Assembly: GCA_946415315.1 (NCBI GenBank)
Contig: CAMKRZ010000022.1
Span: 1 to 54,897 of the forward strand
Direction of reading: 5' to 3'
Length of the DNA stretch: 54,897 nucleotides
Origin: an uncultured Lachnoclostridium sp.
GTDB lineage: Bacteria > Bacillota > Clostridia > Lachnospirales > Lachnospiraceae
Both the position numbers and the translations under genes were made by a program. Shown here piece after piece: positions 44,791-47,239 of the stretch; the stretch's first letter is position 1, and every line of letters begins with the position of its first letter. The notes under the pieces are model-generated. The model was not told the origin of the DNA and searched no databases. It was given only the letters and a program-made list of their open reading frames with translations.

Positions 44791-44813
44791 GCAGTTTTTT
44801 CCTGCCGTACTTT

Positions 44814-45003
44814 AAGAAAACCGGCACACTATGAACCTTTCTCCGCGGCGACCGTGTACTAAGAAAGCGTTTCACGCTCATATCAAACGTTGCTGCTCGC
44901 GAACTCGCTATGCTCAAACACACTCGCAGCAACGTTATTCACGCTCACGCTTTCTAAGGACACGTCGCATGCTGCGTGCGGCTCATAGTGTGCCGGTTTT
45001 CTT
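44814..45003. repeat. Structured palindromic element A (about 190 bp)
   Basis: A perfect 21-bp inverted repeat bounds the element (44814-44834 and 44983-45003). Inside it is an interrupted stem of 18 bp with two mismatches, and a perfect 10-bp stem ACGTTGCTGC/GCAGCAACGT around a loop containing ATGCTCAAACA. TTCACGCTCA occurs twice between the stems as a direct repeat. The whole can fold into one long cruciform or RNA hairpin. It is related to element B in the opposite orientation. The outer stem ends in CCGGTTTTCTT, which could also terminate transcription of either neighbour. Confidence 0.9.
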
Positions 45004-45109
45004 ATTTGTATGCAGGAATATACAGGATTAACGGATCATTCAGACATTGTATTTTCGGACCGATCAGGAAAGAATCATAAAGTATCAGCAGAATTCATCC
45101 GGCATTTAC

Positions 45110-45293
45110 GATTGGGCGAGATTCTGTGTCCTATGAAGCATGCAACGAGTCCTTATCGAGTGTGAACGCGAATAGGTGCGCTGCGAGGATGTTTGAGCAC
45201 AGCGAGTTTCGGAGCAGCGCACCTTGACATGAGCGTGAAACAGTCGATTAGTACTCGGTTGCCGCGAAATAGGACACAGAATCTCGCCCAATC
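45110..45293. repeat. Structured palindromic element B (about 184 bp)
   Basis: A perfect 25-bp inverted repeat (45110-45134 and 45269-45293) encloses an interrupted middle stem and a perfect 10-bp stem GGTGCGCTGC/GCAGCGCACC. Compared with the reverse complement of element A, the loops are nearly identical (GCATGC, GTCCTTA, TTTGAGCA-AGCGAGTT, ATGAGCGTGAAAC, GCCGCG) while all three stems differ in sequence but stay paired. That is compensatory variation. There is no transposase or target duplication that I can see. Confidence 0.9.
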
Positions 45294-45344
45294 ATATATC
45301 GGATCAATTTTGTTTCTTCCTTATATAAATGTGGGTGATTTTTG

Positions 45345-46846: not shown

Positions 46847-47239
46847 TCATGAATTTGTCAATACAATTTCGTGGATATTTGTAATCTGTTTGTGGATAAC
46901 CCGTGGATAAGCGGCATTTTTATGATCATTCCCTGTTGATACTTTTCGGATTGTATGTTGACAACCGATTATTTCTTCGGATAACCGATTTTCGGTCTGT
47001 TTATTTCTGTTTTATCCGATCCTGACAGACTTCCGGTTCTTCTGAAATCTGTCCGAACTATCCACACATGATCAACGTATCGATTCGGATAAGGATTCCC
47101 TGTATTTGCAAGGGAAAATGCACTTATCAACAAATCCACGCTGCCTACTACTACTTCGGTTATAATTCAATTTAAAAATCATAATAAAAGGCTTCGCCGT
47201 TTACGGTCTGCATTTATCAAAAAGAAAGGAACACGATCT
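46847..47239. other. Probable oriC with DnaA boxes (dnaA-dnaN intergenic region)
   Basis: A perfect reversed DnaA box, TGTGGATAA, lies at 46891-46899. One-mismatch boxes are at 46902-46910 (CGTGGATAA), 47058-47066 (CTATCCACA) and 47124-47132 (TTATCAACA). The surrounding DNA is AT-rich, and switch of gene strand from minus to plus occurs nearby. A TATAAT at 47161-47166 may be the dnaN -10 box. The exact unwinding site is not determined. Confidence 0.8.

Follow-up and report, generated by a model that had tools for sequence, protein, structure and literature searches.

A divergent pair of long hairpins with conserved loops and exchanged stems beside dnaA of an uncultured Lachnoclostridium sp. 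suggests a little-known type of DNA element

Integron attC sites act as folded single-stranded DNA, in which the unpaired bases are conserved and the stems are variable, and they would work like the long hairpins reported here, although the tip, the loops and the arrangement of the latter are different. Other known repeats resemble these hairpins in other respects. REP sequences are palindromes of 20-40 bp according to the excerpt of PMC3733652, and REP/REPIN repeats, which occur with RAYT, share with our elements the organization as intergenic interspersed palindromes, often in inverted pairs; in contrast, our elements are far longer (~190 nt), have no association with Y1 and carry a tip common to several phyla. 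REP/REPIN palindromes also have a GTAG or CGTC foot, and GTAG was absent from the element consensus when read by eye. MITEs are likewise repeated and non-coding, and a paired unit found in Variovorax has inverted ends as they do, but no target duplication was seen by eye, no transposase with such ends was found and the element stems are not inherited as sequence. Template switching is described as homogenising the arms of inverted repeats in the excerpts of PMC8604942 and PMC7202029, and the quasipalindromes attributed to it have arms complementary in blocks, as our elements do; however, any imperfect palindrome is a quasipalindrome, whereas the elements have a recurring conserved tip and loop modules. 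The "intergenic dyad sequences" of Haemophilus influenzae (Read and Farley 1997, as cited in the excerpt of PMC4144887) fit in name, host and intergenic place, a likeness drawn from that description only. H. influenzae carries divergent pairs of the hairpin family, and its dyad sequences may be members of it.

The window, that is, the whole stretch of 54,897 nucleotides that was analysed, contains two such elements in opposite orientations. Element A (44810-45006) is read on the minus strand and its divergent partner, element B (45104-45299), on the plus strand; both were delimited by folding and by their alignment with each other, and scored 225.7 and 227.7 bits, respectively, against a covariance model of which they were the training sequences. 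They lie between the dnaA promoter and the start of a gene that we take to be rpmH from its N-terminal motif. In RNA folding, A formed one long hairpin of -105.2 kcal/mol (z -10.2) and B one of -107.6 kcal/mol (z -11.9), and in each case none of 200 shuffles was as good. The outer arm of A comprises, on the minus strand, 25 nt at 44813-44837 (the 3′ side on the element strand, towards rpmH), which are 96% complementary to the 5′ side at 44980-45004. The tips, recognized from the sequence and from conserved columns, are TGTTTGAGCATAGCGAGTTC in A (44901-44920, minus strand) and TGTTTGAGCACAGCGAGTTT in B (45190-45209, plus strand), with the triplet loops ATA and ACA, respectively, where GNA is usual. 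A spacer (45007-45103) separates the two elements at their 5′ ends, and the same divergent order was found in other close pairs. A matched reversed B at 75% across 130 nt, and this resemblance, like the folding, is far above chance. The analysis confirmed what an earlier note on this DNA had described from the letters, namely the position and opposite orientations of the two elements, their conserved unpaired blocks and their differing stems; no common outer ends of A and B are visible.

The same note had placed the elements at the chromosomal replication origin. A link to the origin is not supported, as the genome has four full copies, two of them elsewhere, and the DNA between A/B and the adjoining genes is free of DnaA boxes. 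Nor is an origin function via DnaA boxes supported: the exact box TTATNCACA is absent between rpmH and dnaA, and its single occurrence in the window, at 46891-46899 just past dnaA, is at chance level (0.74 expected). The T-rich stretch 3′ of B was also considered as an element tail and rejected, as it belongs to the native DNA upstream of dnaA and is also present in the element-free congener G005.

A DNA search and the covariance model trained on the two elements retrieved two more full copies from the window's own genome (G000), as well as matches in congeners, so that the outcome which the earlier note had named as refuting, a search finding only these two copies, did not occur. Copy C (C16:41448-41645) is placed beside a transporter-like gene and copy D (C20:28432-28623) after secA, the genes being named from their translations. 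Under strict filters, matches were present in 12 of the 61 genomes searched: the window's own, 11 of 21 congeners and none of the 39 others. One model match (L043), which looks like coding DNA and has no tip, was taken as false, and at G000:C4:95208-95224 the tip matched alone, without a good model score (E 5.3).

The genus alignment, made by sequence, comprised 19 elements, left from 22 matches after removal of two that were the antisense strands of the window's elements and of one cut off at a contig end (L049). Covariation was counted on the predicted structure, with the tip pairs left out, and was compared with shuffles and with slid structures. Pairing was found in 92.7% of 912 cells, against 77.5% in shuffles, and 39 of the 48 pairs had changed on both sides, against 18.5; none of 500 shuffles reached either value, and slid structures yielded only 10-21 two-sided changing pairs. 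The covariation therefore exceeds every control. In the inner part of the element, the unpaired columns were better conserved than the paired ones (entropy of 0.47 versus 0.68), and the longest near-invariant run of columns in the genus alignment corresponded to the tip. The earlier note had seen here selection for a fold, either as a noncoding RNA or as a single-stranded DNA structure. The covariation across the 19 elements strongly supports a fold that is conserved by compensatory changes in the stems; as to its nature, the noncoding RNA is disfavoured and a single-stranded DNA structure would fit better.

Covariation is commonly taken to prove selection on RNA structure, and a structured noncoding RNA, such as a leader or terminator selected on the transcript, would account for the strong covariation and for the stable RNA folds of A and B; nevertheless, this large natural family seems better explained at the DNA level. 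What discriminates between the two is the share of G.T pairs and of wobble intermediates, measured against a genuine RNA from these genomes. For RNase P of the same genus (16 rows used of 20 matches over the cut-off), an imperfectly matched control with rows more diverse than the elements and a predicted structure, G.T made up 13.2% of the standard pairs, against 4.0% in the elements, and the ratio of two-sided to one-sided (wobble) differences was 1.7:1, against 4.6:1. Among the two-sided differences, transversions accounted for 42% in the elements and 19% in RNase P, and A.C and G.T cells numbered 17 and 34 in the former and 6 and 213 in the latter. A second predicted element structure, with four more pairs, gave a G.T share of 6.0% and a ratio of 4.3:1. 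Stems that change without the wobble steps typical of RNA would fit DNA pairing or copying from arm to arm.

Isolated mismatches were also counted across 153 of 179 tip sites, the 26 with a low stem score being left out, and favoured the tip strand, with 211 G.T versus 113 A.C, 264 G.A versus 70 C.T, and 92 G.G versus 46 C.C. Part of this bias must come from the conserved internal loops, and a slight preference for the tip strand would equally suit an RNA. The orientation of the elements towards genes, on the other hand, revealed no preference: on the 3′ side of 118 elements, the gene was start-facing in 58 cases and stop-facing in 53, and was missing in seven, as judged from crude reading-frame calls after 25 of 143 elements overlapping a long frame had been dropped. 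The comparison with Rfam that the earlier note had called for retrieved no described family at gathering score, either for the elements in the window or for those at 18 other loci, and the only two matches with E up to 10 were at chance level. The few G.T pairs and wobble intermediates relative to RNase P, together with the lack of orientation towards genes, disfavour selection on a transcript, which we consider unlikely.

The history of the stems could be followed at sites shared among species, which preserve traces of the growth and rewriting of bacterial palindromes. On the rpmH side, an element occupies the same place in G000, G013, G014 and G020, a short distance beyond GTCAAGCA and a run of T, and the outer stems are unrelated; within the inner stem of A, five neighbouring pairs are altered together between G000 and G014. 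The corresponding site of G005 has no element, which could reflect a deletion instead of an empty site. In G013, ~45 nt of the 5′ arm are an inverted copy of native DNA from the rpmH promoter region, which the element-free G005 shares. Likewise, D follows the secA stop codon in both G000 and G019, with different outer stems, and the G019 stem includes the end of secA, of which only 5-6 nt are certainly native; in G014, G020 and G007, a short gap without an element separates secA from prfB (names from translations). The relatives of C in G005 and G013 (L020 and L029) adjoin the same transporter-like gene. C itself is embedded in tandem shells (G000:C16:41071-41813; L014:1124-1866), with 7.0 units of 60 nt in the 5′ arm and 3.9 units of 53 nt in the 3′ arm, and tandem shells were also present around an element of G019 (L040), with 4.1 units in the 5′ arm and 2.6 in the 3′ arm. 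From one clear case (G013) and these two arrays, we read fold-back copying as proceeding from the flank on the 3′ side into the 5′ arm. No fresh insertion was seen in the genus. As side observations, the shells make C a very long nested palindrome, and G013 and G014 share, on the dnaA side of the rpmH-dnaA intergenic region, a stretch of 60 nt that contains inverted repeats (AACAATTGTCGCAGCG...) and is distinct from B; remnants of B had been suspected in these two genomes, and the alignment did not bear them out.

These sites bear on two further explanations. In the first, no recognition is involved and template switching alone keeps the palindromes complementary. The homogenisation of arms known from the excerpts of PMC8604942 and PMC7202029 and the inverted flank copy of G013 agree with it, but it leaves aside both the conservation of the unpaired loops and a tip that is near-invariant across many phyla, and is thus most improbable. 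In the second, the hairpin is a DNA structure useful to the host, such as a fork pause, a nucleoid site or a border site, maintained by host selection. The loops kept in copies at sites common to different species are what it would predict, and against it stand the element-free sites in close relatives and the patchy distribution of the elements, which are found in 11 of 21 congeners and, by exact tip, in 12 of 299 genomes sampled from the window's phylum; we regard such a host function as quite unlikely.

The tip TGTTTGAGC(G/A)NAGCGAGTT was found on hairpins in several phyla, the folded strand being the one that bears it. In contigs representing one genome per species, at least 117 stretches had the exact tip, against about two expected from a 4^19 estimate, although variants such as those in A and B escape this exact pattern; among the matches listed, the tip bearers included Bacteroidota, Pseudomonadota, Bacillota, Patescibacteria and others. 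Stem scores were 25 or higher at 90 of the 117 tip sites listed and at only five out of 585 positions drawn at random from these loci. Each of the 26 named genomes selected for the tip bears it, in most cases more than once, and the exact tip was also found in 16 stretches of a viral collection. The internal loops and the tails, such as TTTCTTTGGTTACTTTC, vary by lineage, and the context of the tip in the window's genome resembles that in Lachnospiraceae records (L075, L094), which suggests membership of that family. In most copies the tip reads GC-GNA-GC, with GCATAGC in A and GCACAGC in B. The form GCGAAGC appears in excerpts of the literature on "extraordinarily stable" hairpins, and standard DNA energy parameters gave no special stability for the tip. 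In the open-access literature, six variants of the tip letters occurred in four papers, those listed having titles on other subjects, and no paper contained the tail letters; the novelty claimed here extends only as far as these searches and Rfam.

A tip common to several phyla makes a search for its reader directly possible, and the known mobilization of REP/REPIN by a Y1 (RAYT) transposase would provide one candidate. The elements are interspersed palindromes in inverted pairs, in part REPIN-like, and one Bacteroidetes family of Y1 genes is flanked by atypical secondary structures, according to the excerpt of PMC6006769. Y1_Tnp, however, was detected in three of 12 congeners with elements versus three of 10 without them, and in 13 of the 26 named tip-bearing genomes, and the flanks retrieved for 33 Y1 loci (26 plus seven) were free of the tip, although L196 has a bare 12-nt core. 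The Y1/REP transposase was rejected as a partner on these genome counts and flanks, and a REP/REPIN-like origin is very unlikely. No recurrent mobile-element gene or transposase adjoined the elements in 172 loci. The widest neighbour clusters, named by eye, consisted of ATPases of ABC transporters (11 loci) and of short-chain dehydrogenases (eight loci), followed by frames lying over the elements; the recurring neighbour families were thus common ones only, and no recognising factor was found among them.

In our reading, A and B probably belong to a family of interspersed, non-coding chromosomal DNA hairpins, often arranged as divergent pairs; fold-back copying would rewrite their arms, and a trans-acting factor would read their tip. 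The polymerase would switch template within the hairpin at the replication fork, and one arm, at times together with its flank, would be copied into the other, which would leave the arms complementary. Since fold-back copying should erase internal loops over time, recognition must be assumed: a trans-acting factor would recognise the folded single strand, keeping the tip and the loops, and the same recognition may also have let the elements spread. A conserved tip combined with stems rewritten on both arms speaks for a little-known class of DNA element and against a structured RNA. More tentatively, and as a possibility that we hold with some doubt, these could be selfish DNA hairpins, widespread and existing as folded single strands, with one tip read by one factor in many phyla and with stems copied locally from host DNA instead of being inherited.

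The divergent arrangement of A and B recurs widely. Among loci not picked as pairs, 22 of the 24 close pairs (1.5 kb or less) were divergent, with the 3′ ends outward as in A/B, the exceptions being L096 and L101, and adding the loci fetched as pairs brought the count to 36 of 38; some of these pairs are non-independent, coming from related species, and same-direction neighbours in G067 and G086 fall outside the count. In Variovorax, a paired unit of ~0.6 kb with sharp inverted ends was found at seven loci in two genomes (a further pair without a tail, L223, was kept outside the unit alignment). This unit has terminal inverted repeats and no coding sequence, and its recurrence at seven loci with sharp ends indicates that it has spread in Variovorax. 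The earlier note had named simple MITEs as the alternative, which may yet apply: units have spread in Variovorax, but target duplication was not visible by eye at the seven units and no transposase was found next to the elements. Carriage by phages or plasmids was considered and rejected: the unit matched six of 72,556 plasmid records, mostly in part, with a single record covering >80% of its length, and was absent from phage and E. coli genome records. A 53-nt piece of the Variovorax tail occurs at six places, at ~90%, in NC_014633.1 (Ilyobacter, Fusobacteriota), around 223997-224046. In a Burkholderiales locus (L164:14-1032), two inverted copies with like stems surround a 228-aa frame without a Pfam family, which is a possible cargo gene.
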